A DNA stretch of 64,000 bases, taken from the NCBI GenBank assembly GCA_947504725.1, contig CANNHN010000002.1, positions 1 through 64,000 of the forward strand, in the 5' to 3' direction. The notes under the pieces were generated by a model. That model was not told the DNA's origin. It saw only the letters and a program-made list of their open reading frames with translations, and did not search any database. This document shows positions 7,801 to 56,359 of the stretch, one piece after another (position 1 is the stretch's first letter; every line of letters begins with the position of its first letter). The position numbers were made by a program, and so were the translations under genes. This stretch comes from Bacteroidota bacterium. GTDB lineage: Bacteria; Bacteroidota; Bacteroidia; 2-12-FULL-35-15.

Positions 7801-10800
7801 AGGCCAAACTCTGAATTGGTCATCAGTATTAGACCCATTGTAATATCCAGGAGCAGTTACTTTTAATGGAATAGCATATTCATAATAGTTGTCAGTAAAA
7901 TCTGTTCCCAAACGAACAAAAACATATAAATCATCATTATACAAAGGATCTGCTGTATTTGCTGATGCTTCAGCATGAAGATACATTTTCAACTTTTTGT
8001 ACTGGCGCACATCTAACTCAGTTGTTTTGTATGCAGCACGTGCAGTACCATCTTCCAAATTACAAACCGATAACGACATTGCTTGCTCATTCAAAGCAAC
8101 CAAATTTGCCGAACCGGTATTTATCTCTCTATCAATATTGGGAGGTAAAACATAATTTACTGGTTGTTTGCTTCCATCTTCTTCAATATTAACAGCTCCA
8201 ATATCAAACTGAGTACTTGGATCATCATCTGGCTGATACAATCCAGGTAGCAATAAATCAAATCCATATTTTCTCCAATCGTTACGAACCAATTCTAATT
8301 TTGCAAAACGCAAAGTAATTGGATTGTCGCAACCTTTAATGAACATACGGATAAAACGAATGGACTGAAAGTTATCAATAGAGCCAACTCGAAGGGCATT
8401 CGGATCTTTAATAGGAATTTTAAATTGATACCACGTTATTGGCTTAGAAGTTCCGTCTTTAATATTTTGCCCCGTTGTTTGGTATACATTTGTAATATAA
8501 TTTGTTCCAACACCACCAGCAAAATCACTCGGCTTTAAACCAACTTTGTACTGGTAATAACTTTCAACTGTACTTAAGTTGTTGTCGCGATTAATATCTT
8601 CAATGTTGGGCAACGTTGTAGCTTGTGTAGGAAAAGCACCAGAACTAACAGCAGAGTTCCCCTCTAAACCATTAAATTTTTTATAGCGCTCAACGGTTTT
8701 AATATTTGCTGCATCATACCCACCATCTCTAAAATATTTATAATCATCTCCCGATGGATCTATGCTCACAACTGATTGTTGTAAAGGCGTAAGTGTACTC
8801 AAATATCCATTAAAATGAGTTTGTTCTTGTGCAACGTTCAATCCATCTAATCCAATATCCTGAAATGGTCTATCCCCTTCTTCACTGTTGAAAGCGTTTA
8901 CCAAGGGCTGAATCAATCCAACATACCCCCATGCTGTTGTATCTATTGGCACGTTGTTACCATTGTTTTGAGCAGCCGTACTTGGAGCAGGCAAAACATT
9001 TTCAGCGCTTTTAAATCCATCTCTCAAAACATCTTCCGAAATGTTTCCAATGTCGAAATAAAGTTCCCCTGTTGTACTTGGATTCACAACATCAGAGTTG
9101 AAAGGGTCCATGACCCAAAACTGAATGAACTCAATGTTTGCTGCCTCAAAATCATTGGTACTAATACTACGCATAATACCGCCCCAACGGCTCGTAGGAT
9201 TATTTAAATTTCCATTTACATCTAATCCGGAAGAATAAGGAGAAGGTACACCATCGTAATTGTATTGGCCACGCTCACTTGGATAAAATGATAAATCCAA
9301 TGTTGTTAAAATTATCGGTGTGCCTGATGAAGAAGGTTTATTCGGGAAAACTTCTGTTTCTGGAATTTCACGTGCAAAATTATTTGACATGTCTGTTGTA
9401 TTAATATTGCTAGGAGTAACACCAGATTGCACACGTTGAAACATCGGATCGATGTGATACCAATTTAATTTTGCTCTATTAAATCCATTTGCTGTGTCGT
9501 TTGACAGCCCCCCTTCGGGAAACATTCCCGCAGTTGTTTGTCCTTGTGGAGTACTTGCTAAACTCCATGCACTTTGCGCTTGCAAAGCAATTTCCGACTG
9601 ACTTCCTTCAAAATCATCGATGTATGAATTACCCGCCTTTCCGATTGCTTTGCTATGACCAGGAATTAAATAAGCAAATTCTCCAGCAGCTGTAATGGTA
9701 CTCACCTCTTTGGTTTCGATGAAAGGAATTTTATCAACTAAGCGTGTTAAAAAAGGAGCTTCTGTTCTGTAGTTTGCATCAAATCCAAGAATTGTATTTG
9801 AAATCGGTTCATCACCAATATTTACTTTTTTAGTAAGTGGTCGTTCTGTTAAATTTAAAACGGTCGCTCCAATTGTAAAATCTTTATTGATTCGGTAATC
9901 GAGGTGAGTCCCGAACAATGTTTTTTGCTGAATGGCAAAGAGTGCGTTACTTTCCAAAGAAATTTTGATGGGTGTTCCTGAATTTAAAATTCCTTCATCA
10001 ATAATTTTAACGCGACCCAAAGTATAATCAACGGTATATTGTACGTTCTCTTGCAAAACAATTCCACCTGCTGTAACAGTTACAGAACCTTGCGGAACGT
10101 TAGGCGCGCCTAAAGAAATTTCGGAGCCTCCTGAGCCTTTGTAAGAACCTTTTAATTTGAAACGATTTAAATTTGCAAATACATTTCGAGCAGAAGTAAT
10201 CGTTGAATCATACAATGGATCAAACACATAAGTATTTGCTTCCAAAGGATCACAACCGGCAGCTGTCCCTAAAAATTTTTGTCGCAAATGATCTCCTAAA
10301 GGTTCCACAACAGGAAATACAACACGACCATTGGTTGAATTAATTGTTACACCATCAATAAAATCGAATGCTCCATCTGCAATCTGATCGCTTTGTTGAT
10401 TTAATCGATCGACATTTAATACTTGAATTAATGGTTTTGCTTTGATGTTTGTTTGGCAATCATTCACAGGCAAATAATTAATATCTGTTCCGGTGATTGC
10501 ATTTGTATAAAAAACTTCCAGTTTGAAATCTTGTGCATTCACTTGATAAGCTCCTATGGAATAAATATTTTTCATCATCAAATCCCACATTGGATGTTTT
10601 GTATTTACAGCTGAGCTCTTCAACATTTTTGTGAATAAGGCATCCGGAGAGCTTATTCCATCTGTAGACAATTCACCTACTTTGTAAACAGCTCCATTGT
10701 AAGTATACTCATAGGCTACTGAAAGAATTTGATCAGGATTTAATTGTTGGTTTAAGGATACATATCCCAATCGTGCATTAACAGTATATTCCGATGCCTG

Positions 10801-46901: not shown

Positions 46902-48190
46902 ACTGCCTTTAAATTAGTTTGACTATTCATATACATTTCTAAAATCTTTGCCTTTTCATTACTTGTTATTTTGATGTATTTAAAAAACGCCTCTTCTGTT
47001 TTGTGTCCTGTTACCCCCATTATTACTATTGGTGGGACACCCGCTAAATAAAGATTTGAGGCGAAACTTCTACGAGCTGTATGACTTGAAATCAATTCGT
47101 ACTTCTTTGAATTGGTATGTTTCGTTACACCTCCTCGAGTTGTTTTTACTGATGTGCTAACTTGTAGGCTCTTTATCTTCTCCTTATTATTTGCTAGTTC
47201 TTTCAAGTATTGATTCATTTTTTGGTTCGAAATACTAGGAGGCAATTGATTGTTATACTTTTTGAATATTGCCTCAACTTTAGGGTGCAAAGGTATTTTA
47301 ACTGTTTCCCCTGTTTTTTGGGTTTCGATTTCAATAATCTTTCCTTTGAAATTTTTAGGGCGCAATTGAGTAAAGTCAGAAAACCTTAATCCAGTATAAC
47401 AACCAATCAAAAACAAATCTCTCACTCTTTCTAATCGTTCGCTATTTGAAAGGTCTAAATGATAAAGGTCGTTTAACTCCTCCTCTGTTAAATATACGTT
47501 GTTAATCTTCTCAGATATAACACGAAATCGTTTGCTCCGAAATGCGAGGTTTGAATTAACCCCTCTTTCAGTTGCCTCGTTTAAAACCGTTTTAATGACC
47601 TTAATAACCTTTCCAATAGTATTTGTAGCGAACTTCTTTGTATTGATTAAATACTCACTAAAATCGTGGTAAAAATCGAGGTCAATAGTATCGAAATCAA
47701 TTCTCTTTTTCTTAATTCGGGAATATTCTTTTATGTGAGTAAAGGAGTTATTATACTTTTTGATTGTGCTACCCGCAATTATTCGCCCTGTATGAATGTT
47801 TGTTCGGGTTTTCGACTCTTCAATGTACTTTTTGAAAAACCCGAAAAAGTCAAAAGGAGTTTCTTTAATATCGCTAAGTTCGTTATTGAGTAAATCTCTT
47901 AACACCTCAACTGTCGGTTGTCTTTTGTTGTCATTTATATACCTCCGAAACAAATCCTTTGCGGTTTCCTGTAAATCGTCTAATCTCGAATTGAGTTCTG
48001 AATGACTTTTAATCTTTCGTGTTTGGGTTGCCCTCTGAAAGTCTGACTTTGATTTGTCGGTTTGCCAATATTTTGGGTTCACCGTTTCGCCTGTTGGATA
48101 AACGAGCCTTTTATTATCCCAACGGATAACAAAATTAATAGGAGTTGAGGAGGTGTTGACCTCTCTGAGATTGAAGTTATACTTTGCCAT
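46898..48190 (-). CDS. Tyrosine recombinase / phage-type integrase
   Basis: From the ATG at 48190 it is 430 residues. It has an arm-binding N-terminus (NFVIRWDNKRLVYPTGETVNPKYWQ), a SAM-like core-binding domain (about 115-205) and a catalytic domain with the full set R269 (GCYTGLRFSDF), H370 and R373 (SSHTARRSF), H396 (GVTGHKT) and the nucleophile Y405 (AFFKYIKI). It inserts and excises the element at the tRNA-Gln 3' end. The frame opens at a TTG (48217), but that codon is inside a TATATTTG promoter box, so MAKYNFNLREV is the better start. It is the first gene of the element's minus-strand run. Confidence 0.96.
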   Translation of the reverse strand: MAKYNFNLREVNTSSTPINFVIRWDNKRLVYPTGETVNPKYWQTDKSKSDFQRATQTRKIKSHSELNSRLDDLQETAKDLFRRYINDNKRQPTVEVLRDLLNNELSDIKETPFDFFGFFKKYIEESKTRTNIHTGRIIAGSTIKKYNNSFTHIKEYSRIKKKRIDFDTIDLDFYHDFSEYLINTKKFATNTIGKVIKVIKTVLNEATERGVNSNLAFRSKRFRVISEKINNVYLTEEELNDLYHLDLSNSERLERVRDLFLIGCYTGLRFSDFTQLRPKNFKGKIIEIETQKTGETVKIPLHPKVEAIFKKYNNQLPPSISNQKMNQYLKELANNKEKIKSLQVSTSVKTTRGGVTKHTNSKKYELISSHTARRSFASNLYLAGVPPIVIMGVTGHKTEEAFFKYIKITSNEKAKILEMYMNSQTNLKAV

Positions 48191-48214
48191 TGTTTCTACG
48201 AAAATTGAACATTG

Positions 48215-48222
48215 CAAATATA
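48215..48222 (-). promoter_or_regulatory. -7 promoter box for the integrase operon
   Basis: On the minus strand TATATTTG fits TAnnTTTG, 24 nt before the ATG at 48190. The -33 region runs into the right arm-type repeats, so integrase binding there would repress its own promoter. Confidence 0.6.
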
Positions 48223-48238
48223 TACTAAAAATCGCTCC

Positions 48239-48279
48239 GTTGTCGGTTTGGTTGTCGGTTTTTCTTTTCGTTGTCGGTT
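48239..48279 (+). repeat. Right arm-type repeats (3 x gttgtcggtt)
   Basis: Direct copies of gttgtcggtt lie at 48239-48248, 48251-48260 and 48270-48279. The first two have the same 12-nt spacing as the left pair. They are in the same orientation as the left copies. Confidence 0.85.
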
Positions 48280-48302
48280 TTAGTTTAATCTATCTTAATT
48301 CC

Positions 48303-48310
48303 TATATTTG
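48303..48310 (+). promoter_or_regulatory. Outward-facing -7 box near attR
   Basis: TATATTTG followed by ctaaa matches the box near attL (42817). It reads toward attR and a 14-codon ORF (48321-48365). In the excised circle it would read across attP toward the left end. Confidence 0.5.
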
Positions 48311-48365
48311 CTAAATATTAATGTTTACAAAGGTTTCAATAAGATTAAAGAAAATGGAGGAATAA

Positions 48366-48389
48366 AGGTTCGTGTTCTAGTCGGACAAC
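48366..48389 (+). repeat. attR: copy of tRNA-Gln 3' end
   Basis: It matches attL in 21 of 24 positions, with the last 13 (ctagtcggacaac) identical. The copy has no anticodon arm, so it is not a tRNA gene. Confidence 0.88.
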
Positions 48390-48391
48390 GG

Positions 48392-48419
48392 AAAAGCCCT
48401 ACGAAAGTGGGGCTTTTTT
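48392..48419 (+). terminator. Original tRNA-Gln terminator, displaced by the element
   Basis: The stem aaaagccc / gggctttt (10-nt loop) with a T-run lies 2 nt after attR, where the chromosomal tRNA terminator would have stood before integration. Confidence 0.8.
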
Positions 48420-48449
48420 ATTTTCCATCTATTTCCCTATATTTACTTC

Positions 48450-49568
48450 ATGAAAAAACATATACTTCTTTTCACCTTAATATTAACCGCTGCATTCGGT
48501 TATTCTCAATCACTAATGTTCACAGGGAAACCAATGTATGAAATCCTTACCAAACGGTTGGGAGATACATTGGGGATTACCAATGTAGAACTTTTCCCTG
48601 CTATTGCTCCATTTCACGTAAATAACTTTGACAGCTTGGTGAGTTTCCAATATTATGACAGCACTGCTTTTCACCGCGTTATTCCTGGGTTTATGATTCA
48701 AGGTGGTGATCCGAATTCAAGAAGCGGACCAATTGCTACTTGGGGATTGGGTGATCCGAGTCAACCAACTGTGAATGCCGAATTTTCTGTTGCAAAACAT
48801 TTAAGGGGTATTCTTTCGGCTGCACGCGATACAGATCCTAACAGCGCCAACTCACAATTTTTTATTTGTGTTGCAGCAGCAGCATGGTTAAATGGCAATT
48901 ACTCCGTATATGGAAGAGTCACTTCAGGAATGAACTATGTAGATACAATAGTAAGTGCTCCTAGAGATGCTGCTGACAATCCATTTGATAAAATTGAAAT
49001 GTTTGTAAGCTACATTGGATCAAACGATACACTTCCGAATGTTCCAGTGCACAATTCACCAGCAATCGCTTCGGTGAGTGCTTCCACTGCTCGAATCCTA
49101 AAATGGAACGCTCAATATGACGGCATCATTTATCATATTCAAGTTTCTACAGATTCAACATTTGCAACTACACACCGCAATGTGGATGTTGGAACCAACC
49201 AGTACACTGTAAGTGCTTTAACTCCGGGAAAATATTTTTGGAGAGTATATACCAATAATGGAGGTAGCATCAGCGCTTATTCTAGTCCGTGGTATTTTTA
49301 TGTTACAGGAACAGGAATTGAAGACCAAGTTGCAACAACTCCAATCTCTGTTTATCCGAATCCAAGTGCAGGGAAATTTTTATTTTCAAATTTAGAAGAT
49401 GAAAGCACGATAGAAGTTGTAGATATAACAGGAAAAAGTATTTTTAAAACTGTTTCTAAAAACACAACAACAACAGTTGATTTAACTAACAAAGCAAAAG
49501 GAATTTATTTTTATAGTGTTAGTACTAAAAACAAAAGAGTTCAACAAGGGAAAATCATCGTACAATAA
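48450..49568 (+). CDS. Secreted cyclophilin with T9SS sorting domain
   Basis: A 372-residue protein with signal peptide MKKHILLFTLILTAAFGYSQS. The cyclophilin-type peptidyl-prolyl isomerase domain (about 28-195) has the key segments DSTAFHRVIPGFMIQGGDP, GILSAARDTDPNSANSQFFI and YSVYGRVTSGMNYVD. A fibronectin-III-like domain (about 200-285) follows. The C-terminal 85 residues are a T9SS sorting domain (ISVYPNPSAGKFLFSN, DITGKSIFKTVSK, KGIYFYSVST, KRVQQGKIIVQ). It is probably an exported folding catalyst for surface or secreted proteins. It is the first gene downstream of the integrated element. Confidence 0.93.
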   Translation: MKKHILLFTLILTAAFGYSQSLMFTGKPMYEILTKRLGDTLGITNVELFPAIAPFHVNNFDSLVSFQYYDSTAFHRVIPGFMIQGGDPNSRSGPIATWGLGDPSQPTVNAEFSVAKHLRGILSAARDTDPNSANSQFFICVAAAAWLNGNYSVYGRVTSGMNYVDTIVSAPRDAADNPFDKIEMFVSYIGSNDTLPNVPVHNSPAIASVSASTARILKWNAQYDGIIYHIQVSTDSTFATTHRNVDVGTNQYTVSALTPGKYFWRVYTNNGGSISAYSSPWYFYVTGTGIEDQVATTPISVYPNPSAGKFLFSNLEDESTIEVVDITGKSIFKTVSKNTTTTVDLTNKAKGIYFYSVSTKNKRVQQGKIIVQ

Positions 49569-49569
49569 T

Positions 49570-49635
49570 TCACCACAGATTACACAGATAAACACAGATT
49601 ATATTCTTCTGTGAAAATCTGAGAAATCTGTGGTT
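49570..49635. repeat. Dispersed 'ccacagattacacagat' repeat
   Basis: Runs such as cacagattacacagataaac and tctgtgaaaatctgagaaat form an imperfect inverted repeat between the cyclophilin and the next gene. It is related to the cggatt repeats flanking the GxxExxY gene. Confidence 0.7.
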
Positions 49636-49651
49636 AAACCGAAAATCATTT

Positions 49652-50158
49652 ATGAAAAAAGTAATCATCATTCTACTAGCTATTATTTCTTATAGCAATG
49701 CCTCCGCACAATTAATGTCCTTAGGTTTTATCAAAAACTGCATGAGTTATAATCGCACAGCATATGAGAACGAGTTGTTCAAAAAACATTTTTTTAAAGT
49801 AGAGCATGCTGTAGAAAATCCGCAAAATGGATTTTTGAAAGGTGCGACATCTTATTCAAATGTGAAGAATACAGCCGATGGAGAAATTAAAGTGCTGTCG
49901 CTAATCACCGACAAACAAAATATTACAGAAATTTATTTTGTGAACGGTCCGAAGAATGATTATTCAAAAAACTTTACAGAAGTATACAATCAGATGGTAT
50001 CGTTTTTCAACAATCAATCAGCTTTTAAAAGTGCAAAGTACAATGTGGATGTAACGAAGTTCACAAAAGACAAAACGTCTTACTACGCTTACAAACTGAA
50101 AGAAATAATGGTGATTGTTGTTTCTAATATAAAATTGGAGGATACGTATTTTAAATAA
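49652..50158 (+). CDS. Secreted protein of unknown function (168 residues)
   Basis: It has a signal peptide (MKKVIIILLAIISYSNASAQ) and a mature part of about 148 residues: LGFIKNCMSYNRTAYENELFKKHFFKVEH, NGFLKGATSYSNVKN and a C-terminal YKLKEIMVIVVSNIKLED. No family is recognised. It may be a small periplasmic alpha/beta protein. A dispersed repeat separates it from the cyclophilin gene, so cotranscription is uncertain. Confidence 0.7.
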   Translation: MKKVIIILLAIISYSNASAQLMSLGFIKNCMSYNRTAYENELFKKHFFKVEHAVENPQNGFLKGATSYSNVKNTADGEIKVLSLITDKQNITEIYFVNGPKNDYSKNFTEVYNQMVSFFNNQSAFKSAKYNVDVTKFTKDKTSYYAYKLKEIMVIVVSNIKLEDTYFK

Positions 50159-50217
50159 GAAAAGTGCTTAACCAAAATACTTGGTCTAAGCTGTTTGCCA
50201 CTTTTCAACAATTGAAA

Positions 50218-50514
50218 TTAACACCCTTCTACTCGCTTGCCGTCCTTATAAAAAACGGTTTGCATCCCCTTACCGAATTCAATAACTACCCACTTTCCTT
50301 GCCTCTTGTTGTTTTTATCGGTAATATTTATCCTTTCAGTTTTATCTCGGTAATTCTCTTGAATATTTCTTGTCCACAAATCCATGGAATCAACAAAACT
50401 ATTTTTAGGAGTTGCAACAGCACCAGGTTGAGACATATTGTTTGTTTCAACAGCGGATTTTTCACAAGCAAAAAGAAACAAAACCAACGGAGTTAAAATA
50501 ATTAATTTTTTCAT
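50218..50514 (-). CDS. Small lipoprotein with MORN-like motif
   Basis: The 98-residue protein has a lipoprotein signal peptide with lipobox LFLFAC (Cys at about 17). The C-terminal half contains DKNNKRQGKWVVIEFGKGM and TVFYKDGKRVEGC, a pattern like a MORN/YwqK repeat (N.G.W..Y..G). Function unknown. It is followed upstream by the response-regulator gene on the same strand, 19 nt away, and may be cotranscribed with the two-component system. Confidence 0.7.
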   Translation of the reverse strand: MKKLIILTPLVLFLFACEKSAVETNNMSQPGAVATPKNSFVDSMDLWTRNIQENYRDKTERINITDKNNKRQGKWVVIEFGKGMQTVFYKDGKRVEGC

Positions 50515-50532
50515 GAGTTAATTTTTTAGCTA

Positions 50533-51231
50533 TTATTTTCCAGTCAATAATTTAAATCCTTTGCCATGTACATTTATTAGCTCAACGGCAGCATCTTCTT
50601 TTAGATACTTTCTAAGTTTTGCAATGTATACATCCATGCTTCTTCCGTTGAAATAATTATCATCATTCCAAATGGATTTTAATGCAAAGTTTCTATCCAA
50701 TACATCGTTAGCATGCAGACAAAGTAATTTTAAAAGCTCTGCCTCCTTGGTTGTCAACTTATGCTGAACTCCTTTCAAATCTAATATTTGATGTTTATAA
50801 TCAAACTTATATTTGCCAACTACAAATTCTTCTTGGTCTGAATTTTTAATCGTTTTATTGTCCGTTCTTCTCAAAATAGCTTTAATACGCAACAACAATT
50901 CCTCCATACTAAATGGCTTTGTGATATAATCATCTGCTCCAACAGAAAAACCTTCTATGGCATCTTCCTTCATGGATTTAGCTGTTAAAAACACAATTGG
51001 AATGTTTGCATCAATGGCTCTAATTTCTTTTGCTAAGGTGATACCGTCTTTAATGGGCATCATCACATCCAAAATACAAATCCCGAATTTGTCTTTCGAA
51101 AAAACATCATAGCCTTGTTTTCCGTTTGTTGCCAAAACAGTTGAATATCCTTTTGCTTCAAGATATTCTTTTAAAAGACTACCTAAGTTTGGATCATCTT
51201 CTACCAATAATACTTTTGTTTTTTCCATCAT
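50533..51231 (-). CDS. OmpR-family response regulator
   Basis: The 232-residue protein has a receiver domain (about 5-118) with acidic pocket VEDDP, phosphorylated Asp55 (ICILDVMMP) and the conserved Lys near 106 (FLTAKSM). The C-terminal winged helix (about 135-230) includes KLTTKEAELLKLLCLHAN and the recognition segment NGRSMDVYIAKLRKYL. It receives phosphate from the histidine kinase encoded 63 nt upstream and should bind direct-repeat DNA. Confidence 0.95.
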   Translation of the reverse strand: MMEKTKVLLVEDDPNLGSLLKEYLEAKGYSTVLATNGKQGYDVFSKDKFGICILDVMMPIKDGITLAKEIRAIDANIPIVFLTAKSMKEDAIEGFSVGADDYITKPFSMEELLLRIKAILRRTDNKTIKNSDQEEFVVGKYKFDYKHQILDLKGVQHKLTTKEAELLKLLCLHANDVLDRNFALKSIWNDDNYFNGRSMDVYIAKLRKYLKEDAAVELINVHGKGFKLLTGK

Positions 51232-51233
51232 CC

Positions 51234-51275
51234 TACGAATTACGAATATAACGAATTACGAATCTGCGTATATTT
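51234..51275. repeat. Short 'acgaattacgaat' repeats
   Basis: Runs of tacgaattacgaatataacg lie between the two-component genes. The same words occur at 31578-31622 (cgaataacgaattattacga). Confidence 0.6.
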
Positions 51276-51294
51276 TATATTCTGGTTTTATTAA

Positions 51295-52905
51295 TTAATT
51301 TTTTATTTCATAAGGCAAATACAACGTAAACATACTTCCTTTGCCTAGTTCACTTTCTACTTTTACAGAACCGCCATGTTTTTCAACAACAGCTTTAACA
51401 TAACTTAACCCCAAACCAAATCCTTTTACATTGTGTATGTTTCCTGTAGGAACTCGATACATCGTGTCGAAAATTCGTTTTTGATTGTCTTTACTTATTC
51501 CAATTCCGTTGTCCGCTACCGAAATAAAAACCCCTTCATTATCATTTCGAGTGCTCACTTTTATTTCTGGATTTTCTTTTGAATATTTTAATGCATTGTC
51601 GATAAGATTAAAAAGTATGTTCGTAATATGAACTCTATCGGCATTGATAATAGGCTTAGTTGCATTTAATTGCGATGTTATTTGGCCTTCTTTGTTTTCA
51701 ACTTGTAATTTAATATTAGTAAACGTTTGTTCAATCAAATTATGAATATCAATGTTTTGAATTTTTAATTTGAATTCTCCTTTATCTAAAATAGCTGTCT
51801 GCAAAATATTTTCTACCAACAAACTCAATCGTTTGTTTTCATCACCTATCATCTTCACATAATTATTTACACGGTCAGCCGATTTTTCTACCGACTTATC
51901 ATTTAACACTTCTACAGCTAAAGAAATTGTAGAAATAGGCGTTTTGAACTCATGCGTCATATTGCTAATGAAATCGTTTTTAATTTCAGATAATTTTTTT
52001 TGTTTAAAAATTGTAGAAATTGTATAGTAAAACGAAAAAATTAATGTTAACATGAATGCCAATGAAACAAGCAACAATCCCCACATGGAGCTAACTAAAT
52101 AGCGATGTTGGTGGGGAAAAAAAACAGAAAGAAATTTTGGTTTAATAAAAATATTGTCAGGAGAAAGATTCACTTTGTATGGTGAGTCATAAATTTTTCT
52201 TTCAGTTTCATTTGCAATGACTGAATCAACAGGAATATTTTTAAAAGCGGTTACACCAAAATCATAATCTGCGGAAATTCCTTTTTGTAATAGTTCGAAT
52301 TTTAAAATAGAATCCAAAAGAACCGTATCAACTTTTTGACTAAACCCGTTGTAAATATTTACGCTTACCAATTCATCAAAAATATCATTCACCATTTCGT
52401 TCTTATGGGAAATCCAATTAGGGTTAGTTTCAGAAGCAAATTGTTGAAAGAAAGTTGGTCCGTCAGCTTTCACACGATTATGAAAATTGCCTGATGAAGT
52501 ATCGCTAGAATATTCCTTTTGACGCATTTTTTTAACAACTACTCCGTTTGAGTCTGTAGAATATTCCTCAATTACCTTTATGTTAACGTTGTTATCTCTC
52601 AACACACAATTCGTAATATCGTTCAACGTATCGCAAATCAATTCTTTGTTTTTGTGCGACCCACTTAAACTTGCTGTGATGATTCCTTGTTTTCTAAACT
52701 TAAATTTTTGAGTGATTTTAGCCGCAGCAGAATGTTTTTCTAAACGCAAAACAACATTGTTCAATGCTTCATTTACACTTTGTTCGAAACGTTGTTCACC
52801 TAATGTAATAGCATTATTCACCCAATAGATTTGGATAGCAATTAAGCCTAGCAAAGCCAAGCTTGCCATGATGGTAATAATGCGTATGTTTCCTTTGTTC
52901 ATCAT
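51295..52905 (-). CDS. Membrane sensor histidine kinase
   Basis: The 536-residue protein has two membrane helices (about 9-29 and 272-297), which enclose a periplasmic sensor of about 240 residues that I do not recognise. A short linker leads to the HisKA domain, with phosphoacceptor His318 in FISNMTHEFKTPIS. The HATPase_c domain follows with the N box (LFNLIDNALKYS), G1 box (VADNGIGIS) and G2 (GFGLGLSYVKAVVEKHGG). It pairs with the OmpR-family regulator downstream. Four phased TTTAACA boxes lie upstream of its start. Confidence 0.94.
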   Translation of the reverse strand: MMNKGNIRIITIMASLALLGLIAIQIYWVNNAITLGEQRFEQSVNEALNNVVLRLEKHSAAAKITQKFKFRKQGIITASLSGSHKNKELICDTLNDITNCVLRDNNVNIKVIEEYSTDSNGVVVKKMRQKEYSSDTSSGNFHNRVKADGPTFFQQFASETNPNWISHKNEMVNDIFDELVSVNIYNGFSQKVDTVLLDSILKFELLQKGISADYDFGVTAFKNIPVDSVIANETERKIYDSPYKVNLSPDNIFIKPKFLSVFFPHQHRYLVSSMWGLLLVSLAFMLTLIFSFYYTISTIFKQKKLSEIKNDFISNMTHEFKTPISTISLAVEVLNDKSVEKSADRVNNYVKMIGDENKRLSLLVENILQTAILDKGEFKLKIQNIDIHNLIEQTFTNIKLQVENKEGQITSQLNATKPIINADRVHITNILFNLIDNALKYSKENPEIKVSTRNDNEGVFISVADNGIGISKDNQKRIFDTMYRVPTGNIHNVKGFGLGLSYVKAVVEKHGGSVKVESELGKGSMFTLYLPYEIKN

Positions 52906-52947
52906 TGATTACTCAAAAATAAGGCTTTCACAGGTGTTGGCGCCCTA

Positions 52948-52985
52948 CTTAACATAATTTAACAGGGTTTAACAGGTGTTTAACA
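52948..52985 (-). promoter_or_regulatory. Four phased (T)TTAACA boxes upstream of the histidine kinase gene
   Basis: The boxes are at 52948-52954 (cttaaca), 52958-52964, 52968-52974 and 52979-52985 (each tttaaca). Spacings are 10, 10 and 11 bp, one turn of DNA. They begin 43 nt before the ATG. This pattern fits an OmpR-type regulator bound as tandem dimers, perhaps for self-regulation. A TATTTTTG -7 box on the minus strand (52914-52921) would put the boxes at about -34 to -71. Confidence 0.65.
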
Positions 52986-53112
52986 AGGCTTGATTGGATT
53001 GCTGCACCTACTTTTTAAACTTTATCCAAAATAAAACGTCCAAAATGGAAACAATCATTGTTGAGTAAATCTATTTACCATCCAGACTATGATTTCGTGC
53101 AAATCGACAATG

Positions 53113-53141
53113 AAGAAAGGGGCTCCGTAAGGGGCCTTTTT
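53113..53141 (+). terminator. Orphan intrinsic terminator
   Basis: Stem ggctcc / ggggcc with GTAA tetraloop, extended by a-t pairs and seven T. No gene lies upstream on this strand (52906-53112 has no convincing ORF), so it may end a small RNA or short transcript. Confidence 0.75.
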
Positions 53142-53143
53142 TT

Positions 53144-53187
53144 ATGGAACGCGGATAACGCAGAAAAAAGGGATTTTCACGGATTTT
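53144..53187 (+). repeat. Left 44-bp inverted repeat of the GxxExxY cassette
   Basis: It starts atggaacgcggataacgcag and ends gattttcacggatttt. It matches the reverse complement of 53714-53757 with a few differences near position 14-20. The rest of the 52906-53311 gap is AT-rich. Confidence 0.88.
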
Positions 53188-53311
53188 TTCCTTTTTTAAT
53201 TCTGTCCCTAAACTAATTTTTGCATCTGTTAGAACTTAAGCGTTTAATCTGATTACTTCAGATTTTTATGTTTCTACATTCGCGACTGCAACATATAAAA
53301 AAGATTTATTT

Positions 53312-53707
53312 ATGGAAGTATTACATAAAGATGTAACTGAAAAAATATTAAAAGGATTTTATGCTGTTTATAATAACTTAGGGTACGGTTTTTTAGAAAA
53401 AGTATATGAAAGAGCACTCTATCTTGAATTAATAGAACTAGGGTTAAAGTGTGAGCGACAAAAAGCAATTGATGTTTATTATAAAGAAAACTTCGTGGGA
53501 AACTACTTTGCAGATTTGATTGTAGAAGACATTATCATATTGGAATTAAAAGCGGCAGAAGGAATTGCTGAAGAACATGAATTTCAGCTGATAAATTATT
53601 TAAAGGCAACTGATATTGAAGTCGGACTTTTACTTAACTTTGGGAAAATACCACAATTTAAAAGGAAAGTATTTACAAATAATAGTTACAGAATAGCGCG
53701 CAAATAA
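53312..53707 (+). CDS. GxxExxY protein (PDDEXK-type nuclease fold)
   Basis: The 131-residue protein matches the GxxExxY family (PF13366, PDDEXK_3-like). The name motif GYGFLEKVYERAL lies near 24-36. The nuclease-like core is NYFADLIVEDIIILELKAAEGI (about 68-89), with the Asp and the ExK (ELK) of a PD-(D/E)xK site. Biochemical function is unknown. The gene lies alone between 44-bp inverted repeats at 53144 and 53714, so it may be a mobile cassette or the partner of those repeats. Confidence 0.93.
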   Translation: MEVLHKDVTEKILKGFYAVYNNLGYGFLEKVYERALYLELIELGLKCERQKAIDVYYKENFVGNYFADLIVEDIIILELKAAEGIAEEHEFQLINYLKATDIEVGLLLNFGKIPQFKRKVFTNNSYRIARK

Positions 53708-53713
53708 AAACAG

Positions 53714-53757
53714 AAAATCCGTGAAAATCCCTTTTTTCCGTTTCATCCGCGTTCCAT
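53714..53757 (-). repeat. Right 44-bp inverted repeat of the GxxExxY cassette
   Basis: It starts aaaatccgtgaaaatccctt and ends catccgcgttccat. It is the inverted partner of 53144-53187, and begins 7 nt after the GxxExxY stop. Confidence 0.88.
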
Positions 53758-53767
53758 CATCCATAAT

Positions 53768-55213
53768 ATGAAGAAGATCCTAAACTACATCAACGGTGAA
53801 CTAATCGAGCCAACTGGCAAACAGTACATCGACAATTATAATCCTGCAACGGGAAAAGTATATTCACTTATTCCTGATTCAGACGAAAAAGACGTGGAAT
53901 TGGCGGTAGAAGCTGCACAAAAAGCATTCCCGGGCTGGAGCAACACTCCTAAAGATGAGCGCTCACGCATCATGCTTGCTGTTTCTGCTTTGATTGAAAA
54001 AAACTTAGATCGATTGGCTGTAGCCGAATCGGTTGATAATGGGAAACCTGTTTCTTTAGCTAAGATGGTTGATATTCCACGTGCGGCAGCAAATTTTCAT
54101 TTTTATGCTACCGGCATTTTACATTATGCTTCTGAAAGTCATTCAATGGAAGATACTGCAATCAACTACACCGTTCGTAATGCAGTTGGTGTTGCTGGCT
54201 GTATTTCTCCTTGGAATTTACCTTTGTATTTATTTACTTGGAAAATTGCTCCCGCAATTGCTGCAGGAAATTGTGTGGTGGCAAAACCTTCGGAGGTAAC
54301 TCCAATGACTGCTTATTTACTTTCTGAATTATGCATCGAAGCAGGTTTACCAAAAGGTGTTTTAAATATCGTTCACGGATATGGACATAAAGTTGGATCA
54401 GCCATAACTGCTCATCCTAAAATTCCACTTATTTCTTTTACTGGTGGAACAAAAACAGGTGCAGAAATTGCAAAAGTAGCTGCACCGATGTTCAAAAAAT
54501 TATCTCTAGAACTTGGAGGAAAAAATCCAAATATCATTTTTGCGGATTGTGATTTCGAAAAAATGATAAAAACAACTTTGCAATCGTCTTTCGCAAATCA
54601 AGGACAGATTTGTCTTTGTGGTTCACGAATCATGATTGAACGTCCGCTTTACGAAAAATTCAAAACAGAATTTGTAGCACGTGTACAAAAAATGAAAGTT
54701 GGAAATCCTGCAGCAGACGATACAAGAATTGGAGCTGTGGTTTCAAAACCTCACATGGAAAAAGTTTTGTCGTATGTTGAATTAGCAAAACAAGAAGGCG
54801 GAAAAGTATTGTGCGGAGGAACACAAGTGAAACTTGACGGAGAATTTGCTGAAGGCTATTACATTGCTCCAACAGTAATTGAAGGATTGACTTACAATTG
54901 CAGAACAAACCTGGAGGAGATCTTCGGACCAGTTGTTACCATCATGCCTTTTGATACAGAAGAAGAAGCTTTGCTTTTTGCAAATGCAACTCAATATGGA
55001 TTAGCATCAACAGTATGGACAGAAAATTTAACGCGTGCACATCGTGTAGCGAATAATATTCATGCTGGAATTGTTTGGATCAACTGTTGGTTGTTGCGCG
55101 ACTTAAGAACTCCATTTGGAGGTGTGAAAAGCTCAGGTGTTGGTCGCGAAGGCGGTTTTGAAGCACTTCACTTTTTTACGGAGCCAAAGAATATTTGCAT
55201 TAAGCTGAAGTAG
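53768..55213 (+). CDS. Aldehyde dehydrogenase, aminomuconate-semialdehyde type
   Basis: The 481-residue NAD-dependent dehydrogenase has the conserved segments ISPWNLPLYLFTWKIAPAIAAGNCVVAKPSEVTP (about 142-175), FTGGTKTGAEIAK, the catalytic Glu in SLELGGKNPN and the nucleophile Cys in FANQGQICLCGSR (about 273-285). Among relatives it is closest in wording to ALDH8 and 2-aminomuconic / 2-hydroxymuconic semialdehyde dehydrogenases, which suggests a role in kynurenine (tryptophan) breakdown. No other pathway gene is near, so the substrate is not certain. The start is 10 nt after the GxxExxY right repeat. Confidence 0.9.
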   Translation: MKKILNYINGELIEPTGKQYIDNYNPATGKVYSLIPDSDEKDVELAVEAAQKAFPGWSNTPKDERSRIMLAVSALIEKNLDRLAVAESVDNGKPVSLAKMVDIPRAAANFHFYATGILHYASESHSMEDTAINYTVRNAVGVAGCISPWNLPLYLFTWKIAPAIAAGNCVVAKPSEVTPMTAYLLSELCIEAGLPKGVLNIVHGYGHKVGSAITAHPKIPLISFTGGTKTGAEIAKVAAPMFKKLSLELGGKNPNIIFADCDFEKMIKTTLQSSFANQGQICLCGSRIMIERPLYEKFKTEFVARVQKMKVGNPAADDTRIGAVVSKPHMEKVLSYVELAKQEGGKVLCGGTQVKLDGEFAEGYYIAPTVIEGLTYNCRTNLEEIFGPVVTIMPFDTEEEALLFANATQYGLASTVWTENLTRAHRVANNIHAGIVWINCWLLRDLRTPFGGVKSSGVGREGGFEALHFFTEPKNICIKLK

Positions 55214-55216
55214 AAA

Positions 55217-56359
55217 CTATCTACTCGTTCTTTCTGTCATATTTAAATCATCGTCAAACGGACTTTTGGCAAATGGATGAATCATTTGTTTAATGTAGCC
55301 TTTCGGATAATTTCCTTCATGAACACCTGTTCCTTCTGGCCAAGTATCTCCAGGTAAATAATACGTTCCAAATAGCTTGTCGATAAAGGGAAATATAGTG
55401 GCAAAATTTTTACCATAATATTTTGGATCTTCACAATGATGCCAATGATGATATTGTGGTGTTGCAAAAATATATTTCAAAAACCCGAAATTTATTCTTG
55501 TGTTTGAATGAATTAATACCGCGTGAATAGCCATAAAAATAATGTAGGTATTAAATGTGAGTGAAGAAAATCCAAATACATATAAAGGTATAAACGTAAA
55601 AGAACGCACTACAAATATGTCGACAAAATGAGTTCGACTACCAGCTAACCAATCCATATTTTTTGTTGAATGATGAATAGAATGAAATCGCCACAAGTAA
55701 GCTTTTGAATGAAAAAAACGATGTGCCCAATATTGAAATAAATCGGTGATAAAAAATGCCAAAAACAATTCTAATATAAATGGCAAACTATTCACCCATG
55801 CATGAATTCCTGAAAGTCCGATCCAACCAAAAAACAAAGCAGCAGGCTTTTGAGTAAACACTCCGAAAAACTGAATAAACAAATGACTAATAATAAAATA
55901 TACTAAATCAGTACGCCATTCTTCGTGAAAACGTGATTGGTCTTTATTTTTTGGCCAAACCATTTCAATAGGAATAAAGATTAAGGACATTAATAATAAA
56001 TCCAACAGCATCCAATCTAATCCCAAATGCCATCTGGTTTCTCCAACCGCTCTTCCTTCGACTGAAAATCCGCCAATTAATACTGTAAGGACAGAAATCA
56101 AAATTCCAATTAAGGCCCATGACTTCTTTTTACTCAACATAAAACTAACGACTGCAAAAAAGAAAGAAGCAATTATAACTATTGTTAGCAATAGCTTCAT
56201 TGATTCGCCAGTATAGACTTCTCTAAATTGTGGGGAAGTAAAAATTTCAGGAAATTTAAAACAAAAAACGGCTAGAAAAGAAAGTGTCGCTAAAAATATG
56301 GATGCATATCCGCTGATTTTCCCTTCACCAATTGCAAAAGAACTAGTTGTTTGATTCAT
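55217..56359 (-). CDS. Sterol desaturase / fatty acid hydroxylase family membrane protein
   Basis: A 380-residue protein with at least six membrane helices. It carries the di-iron histidine boxes HRFFH (about 220-224), HSIHHS (about 232-237) and HYHHWHH (about 310-316) in the FA_hydroxylase domain. Such enzymes add oxygen to or desaturate lipids with O2. The substrate is unknown and could be a hydroxy-fatty acid, sterol-like lipid or carotenoid. It converges with the aldehyde dehydrogenase, 4 nt between the stops. Confidence 0.9.
   Translation of the reverse strand: MNQTTSSFAIGEGKISGYASIFLATLSFLAVFCFKFPEIFTSPQFREVYTGESMKLLLTIVIIASFFFAVVSFMLSKKKSWALIGILISVLTVLIGGFSVEGRAVGETRWHLGLDWMLLDLLLMSLIFIPIEMVWPKNKDQSRFHEEWRTDLVYFIISHLFIQFFGVFTQKPAALFFGWIGLSGIHAWVNSLPFILELFLAFFITDLFQYWAHRFFHSKAYLWRFHSIHHSTKNMDWLAGSRTHFVDIFVVRSFTFIPLYVFGFSSLTFNTYIIFMAIHAVLIHSNTRINFGFLKYIFATPQYHHWHHCEDPKYYGKNFATIFPFIDKLFGTYYLPGDTWPEGTGVHEGNYPKGYIKQMIHPFAKSPFDDDLNMTERTSR

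Follow-up and report, generated by a model that had tools for sequence, protein, structure and literature searches.

A GxxExxY gene between inverted arms

The region examined here, referred to as the window, is a 64,000-nucleotide stretch (positions 1-64000 of contig C2, CANNHN010000002.1, of the 3.4-Mb genome of a Bacteroidota bacterium, GCA_947504725.1). It contains a 614-bp cassette (53144..53757, +) made up of a left arm, a single small gene and a right arm. The gene (53312..53707, +) encodes 131 aa and scores above the curated cut-offs of the family models TIGR04256 GxxExxY (E 3.5e-38) and PF13366 PDDEXK_3 (E 2.8e-39), with 130.6 bits against 35 and 134.5 against 22. No transposase is encoded within the 614 bp, and no Y1 family was reported among the Pfam or NCBIfam hits of the protein. 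The arms match at 40 of 44 positions (53144-53187 and 53714-53757), and at 45 of 52 when the left arm (53144..53195, +) and the right arm (53706..53757, -) are extended. Their alignment score of 34.5 compares with a maximum of 15.0 in 2000 dinucleotide shuffles. The left arm is built from words that we call type A (GGAACGCGGAT / CACGGATTTT).

The cassette is flanked by a sensor histidine kinase gene (51295..52905, -) and by an aldehyde dehydrogenase (ALDH) gene (53768..55213, +) whose start codon lies 10 bp past the cassette; both serve as syntenic anchors and are not part of the element. A terminator-like hairpin plus T run just outside the left arm (53119..53143, +) belongs to the ancestral intergenic region, as it is present in relatives without the cassette. 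Relatives have a gene of unknown function between kinase and ALDH, and the window keeps a trace of its 3' end and its terminator (53020-53143), a relic of a lost gene. No Rfam match was found in window positions 48000-56000.

The original prediction described this gene as bracketed by almost perfect 44-bp inverted repeats in a unit of about 614 bp without a transposase, and that observation is confirmed. Its further claim that the repeats belong to a wider intergenic family is right for the genome, where we found 20 BLAST matches to the cassette or its arms, but not for the window with this word: GATTTTCACGGATTTT has only the two arms plus one chance-level match (3 found, 2.4 expected). A different arm type does occur in the window, as a gene-less palindrome at 49569..49637 composed of CACAGATT words, the type that brackets the GxxExxY gene at C2:323 kb of this genome.

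The protein is predicted to be a minimal Cas4/RecB-like PD-(D/E)XK nuclease. In 101 sequences D68 and K80 are invariant and E78, Q92 and Y96 nearly so, giving E78-x-K80 and the Q92xxxY96 motif of the RecB branch, and E29 is also among the invariant or nearly invariant residues. A confident structural model (pLDDT 94.4, pTM 0.87) has Cas4 SSO0001 as its best match (Foldseek E 2.8e-4; Z 10.1 over 107 residues, rmsd 5.2). A Holliday-junction-resolvase reading was considered (Hjc Z 5.9-7.0), but Cas4 stands higher. A search for sequence relatives in the PDB gave only one weak hit (E 0.14). Unlike Cas4, which has a four-cysteine Fe-S cluster, the window protein has a single cysteine and thus no room for that site, and at the loci read here the gene is found in repeat cassettes rather than in a cas operon. 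Of eleven protein pairs, ten gave dN/dS values of 0.016-0.11 and one had saturated synonymous sites, indicating strong purifying selection; the gene is thus maintained as a protein.

Distribution, grammar and ancestry of the arms

There are five GxxExxY genes in this genome. All five are bracketed by 27-52-bp inverted repeats, but the words differ from copy to copy: GGAACGCGGAT/CACGGATTTT in the window, and CACAGATTACACAGATT, CCGCAGAGAA, GGAACGCAGAT..TTATGATT and AAACACATAGAAACATAG at the others. A scan for inverted-repeat pairs 250-3000 bp apart over 800 kb of contigs C2, C7, C5 and C4, chosen to include the known copies, gave 20 pairs and recovered all five cassettes; one further pair of periodic arms, at C2:304534-307033, brackets a penicillin-binding-protein-like gene.

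To ask whether this arrangement is general, we fetched 80 loci from GTDB species genomes (the best of 541 confirmed relatives), to which 29 loci from class relatives and the five of this genome were added; eight of the 80 were dropped for short flanks. Of the 106 genes tested, from at least ten phyla, 77 have inverted repeats with z>5 and 81 exceed all 100 shuffles, whereas neighbouring ORFs in the same loci give 2 of 118 with z>5, and ParE toxin genes from the same group of genomes give 0 of 30. Chance is rejected by the shuffles, the neighbouring ORFs and this control family. Twenty-nine genes show no significant arms. By source, arms were found for 5 of 5 genes of this genome, 19 of 29 from class relatives and 53 of 72 from the GTDB species genomes. 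Among the last, with labels taken from record titles, these include Bacteroidota (22 of 30), Chloroflexota (7 of 7), Planctomycetota (5 of 7), Verrucomicrobiota (5 of 5), Deltaproteobacteria-labelled records (4 of 6) and further groups with one or two loci each, while the single Ignavibacteria locus and two unlabelled loci had none. One Deltaproteobacteria-labelled locus (L092; L numbers denote individual loci) has repeated arrays on both sides of the gene. There was no match in 50,697 phage records and only 7 in 72,556 plasmid records, which does not favour phage or plasmid carriage. Two further copies on records typed as plasmids also have arms, and the 'plasmid' record of Bacteroides finegoldii carries radA and asparaginase genes and may be chromosomal.

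The arms are tandem words with a period of about 9-11 bp (identity at lag 9 of 0.394 against 0.264 shuffled, at lag 10 of 0.374 against 0.268, and again at 18-22), and cassettes are 417-788 bp long. Arm orientation relative to the gene is conserved (similarity of 10.4 in the same against 6.1 in the opposite orientation). The two arms of one cassette have a mean identity of 0.876, and their mismatches in the coding orientation show no excess of G-U-compatible changes (85 against 82, p 0.88), which points to DNA rather than an RNA stem.

Arm type follows the protein rather than the host. Protein identity and arm similarity correlate (Mantel rho 0.37, 0 of 1000 permutations), also for different-phylum pairs permuted within phylum. 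On a maximum-likelihood tree of the 77 proteins with arms, arm type needs 17 changes against a shuffled mean of 40.3 (0 of 200 as low); the 31 type-A rows lie in a clade of 37 rows (support 98/83) that mixes Bacteroidota, Acidobacteriota, Chloroflexota, Planctomycetota, Pseudomonadota, Cloacimonadota and Thermodesulfobacteriota. Many inner forks of this tree are unresolved, and these tests include only genes with detected arms.

A second, unrelated family shares the plan. Of 29 four-helix-bundle (TIGR02436, S23/IVS-type) genes tested from 30 loci in genus and class relatives (L140-L169), 26 have arms (24 of 29 passed z>5 in a rerun). Their words have a sharp 7-bp period (0.69-0.71 at lags 7, 14 and 21) and are about as unlike GxxExxY arms as the reversed control (5.88 against 5.42), while each family is self-similar (10.4 for GxxExxY and 9.1 for four-helix-bundle arms). 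None of 20 GxxExxY loci and 20 four-helix-bundle loci scanned lies in rRNA. The heptamer repeats (STRR) of cyanobacteria may be related. At the intergenic site where L106 has a full GxxExxY cassette, L138 has (640-860) a gene-less palindrome of 7-bp words (ACAGGTTTCAGGTGTCAG), the four-helix-bundle type.

Gene-less, reduced and empty sites

In the 800 kb scanned, 8 of 198 hairpins resemble GxxExxY arms, against 1 of 198 shuffled. One of them is the palindrome in the window at 49569-49637. They cover four of the five arm types; the fifth (CCGCAGAG) was seen by eye at L192 7464-7556 and as a 41-bp hairpin below the threshold. The L192 palindrome and a solo arm of the same words at 8697 lie on either side of a FAD-dependent oxidoreductase-like gene. 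Another family of hairpins in this genome (GTCATTTCGACCGAAGTGGAG-like; L027 2196-3077, L028 3605-3691, C2:78371-78450 and C7:3521-3605) is unrelated in sequence to GxxExxY arms. Arm units can also build up in tandem. In one relative (G025; G numbers denote genomes) the gene is followed at once by six tandem units of about 145 bp with its own arms, and arrays at two other places share units at 71-94% identity. The arrays of G025 (L272 7526-8450, L273 8615-9099, L275 8600-9450) have periods of 60, 145, 151 and 211 bp and are partly shared between contigs.

Empty and reduced alleles were found at several syntenic sites. Between kinase and ALDH the gene is present in 4 of 29 loci read (G000, G035, G003, G010), while 14 loci show both neighbours without it, among them a 303-bp intergenic region with terminator in G006 and G031; G028 has a small palindrome of other words there, and G032 a solo arm. 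At the CACAGATT site, G010 carries a full cassette, G027 a palindrome with a relic of the gene's N-terminus, and G012 a bare palindrome of about 90 bp. At a site whose downstream gene begins MLQRPRRLRKNP (hemB-like), G028 and G009 are full and the genome studied here has a bare palindrome with the same arms. Between radA and a FAD gene, B. finegoldii carries a 472-bp element and G170 a GxxExxY gene with other arm words, while G066, G363 and G400 have only 36, 13 and 27 bp. Gain or loss is thus shown, but no transposition event with exact junctions. Target-site duplications, looked for in the 75 of 77 cassettes with enough sequence outside the arms, are not enriched (4 with a match of 5 bp or more, permuted mean 2.8). 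No excision product was seen, and in an alignment of the close pair G007/G025 the indels were not clean arm-bounded units and the array in G007 runs off a contig end. The cassettes found in this genome are diverged single copies, unlike a proliferating transposon.

Word counts also vary with the presence of the gene. In 36 genus genomes, CACAGATTACACAGATT words are more numerous where the cognate protein clade is present (6 genomes, median 13.5) than elsewhere (30 genomes, median 1.5; p 4.6e-4), and the reversed pattern occurs in none. For type-A words the medians are 3 against 0 (p 0.007 counting broken genes, 0.042 for full genes). Broken or partial type-A genes occur in G013 (contig C243), where they lie among arm words, and in G032 (C16), G031 (C354), G006 (C12) and G007 (C11). 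These counts ignore phylogeny and are not strictly tied to the gene: G002 has 20 and G008 12 of the CACAGATT words without a close homologue, and the weaker cross tests include a marginally positive one of CACAGATT words against the type-A clade (p 0.04; the other p 0.29).

A proposed miniature element and its rivals

We suggest that the cassette is a miniature genetic element consisting of one small predicted nuclease gene between two inverted arms of short tandem words, and we hold this reading with moderate confidence. The data themselves establish that the arms belong to the gene's lineage rather than to the host, that the element is present or absent at otherwise syntenic sites, that gene-bearing, gene-relic and gene-less forms occupy the same syntenic sites in relatives, and that palindromes of matching type exist elsewhere in the same genome and can build up in tandem arrays, one of them directly behind a gene. 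What we infer beyond this is that bare palindromes arise by loss of the gene in place, that the GxxExxY protein, a stripped-down Cas4/RecB-type protein without the Fe-S cysteines, recognises arms of its own type as DNA (duplex, cruciform or single-stranded fold-back) and cuts there, and that host repair or replication then copies or moves arm-bounded DNA, including gene-less units, in trans.

The original prediction had proposed that GxxExxY may be the enzyme for these repeats, much as TnpA-REP serves REP elements, or else a passenger of repeat-driven movement, and this interpretation is partly supported. Of the checks it had named, those for flanking repeats around homologues, matching gene-less copies and empty sites gave positive findings, and together with the tracking of protein lineage by arm type they support the REP/RAYT-like analogy in outline; that the protein is the enzyme for the repeats remains an inference. 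It had not recognised that arms differ between copies in one genome, that they are periodic, or that the system spans phyla.

In behaviour the proposed element resembles RAYT/REPIN, in which a conserved low-copy enzyme gene is flanked by the repeat type that is dispersed in the genome as gene-less inverted doublets and clusters, and enzyme and repeats seem to co-diversify (PMC3116915). Gene-less inverted copies of the flanking repeat occur here too, but the enzyme is a Cas4/RecB-like PD-(D/E)XK protein rather than a Y1 (HUH) transposase, the arms are tandem 9-11-bp words inverted around the gene rather than short REP palindromes, and the system crosses phyla with its arms. Intervening sequences (IVS) of 23S rRNA with an S23/four-helix-bundle ORF likewise place a small ORF between terminal inverted repeats in a unit of about 0.4-0.6 kb of unproven mobility (PMC4990558), but the GxxExxY protein is unrelated, the loci scanned are not in rRNA, and there is no sign of RNA-stem selection; the four-helix-bundle relatives found here outside rRNA do share the cassette plan. 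IS elements and their MITEs share terminal inverted repeats and internally deleted gene-less derivatives, but here there is no DDE or HUH transposase and no target-site duplication, the cassettes are diverged single copies and the arms are periodic. Foldback (FB) elements of Drosophila have long inverted arms made of short tandem repeats, but are eukaryotic, much longer, and not known to carry such a nuclease.

A serious rival, although we consider it unlikely, is that the gene is a passenger: periodic inverted arms would spread by some other process (host replication slippage, fold-back template switching or another trans-acting enzyme), with small selfish or useful genes such as GxxExxY and four-helix-bundle genes riding inside them. 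The shared architecture of the four-helix-bundle genes is the strongest reason for caution about the enzyme's role, and the diverged single-copy cassettes and the gene-less arms in genomes without a close homologue also fit this view. However, arm words are specific to the protein family and clade, the periods differ (9-11 against 7 bp), and arm type follows the GxxExxY tree across phyla; a passenger has no reason to match its arms. Less likely still, the protein may do a job for the host or for itself (defence, repair or a toxin-like nuclease), with the arms as operator or autoregulatory sites and the gene-less palindromes as decayed copies. Purifying selection, the conserved catalytic residues, the position of the arms next to the gene and the location of the cassettes read in detail close before or after a neighbouring gene's start or stop codon are consistent with this, but the arms are on both sides and inverted, they persist and amplify as arrays without the gene, and presence is patchy at syntenic sites. 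That the arms act as an RNA stem, as in 23S rRNA IVS, is very unlikely, since although the cassette RNA folds better than shuffles (z -5.1) and the inverted-repeat-plus-small-ORF plan is shared, the arm mismatches lack G-U asymmetry and none of the loci scanned lies in rRNA.

The association is real and widespread, and we found no description of it in the open-access literature searched, which left out subscription papers, preprints and the family's own database comments. A more far-reaching hypothesis, possible but less likely than not, is that GxxExxY cassettes are the founding class of transposase-free miniature mobile elements of bacteria, in which a minimal Cas4-like nuclease reads and cuts its own lineage's periodic arms, copying gene-less hairpins in trans. 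Four-helix-bundle/S23 genes, including 23S IVS elements, would be a parallel class with 7-bp arms, so that one general process of periodic-arm elements would underlie both and explain many unexplained intergenic repeats across phyla.

The finding that four-helix-bundle genes of the 23S-IVS type use the same plan with a different word length is the most promising extension of this work and gives a lead on how IVS elements spread, which has been called unclear for the Coxiella IVS (PMC4990558). For the GxxExxY proteins, a widespread family with no accepted function gains a testable substrate hypothesis, namely its own flanking arms. If correct, this would explain a large body of intergenic repeats in Bacteroidota, Chloroflexota, Planctomycetota, Verrucomicrobiota and others, and would add an enzyme superfamily to those thought to drive repeat spread.
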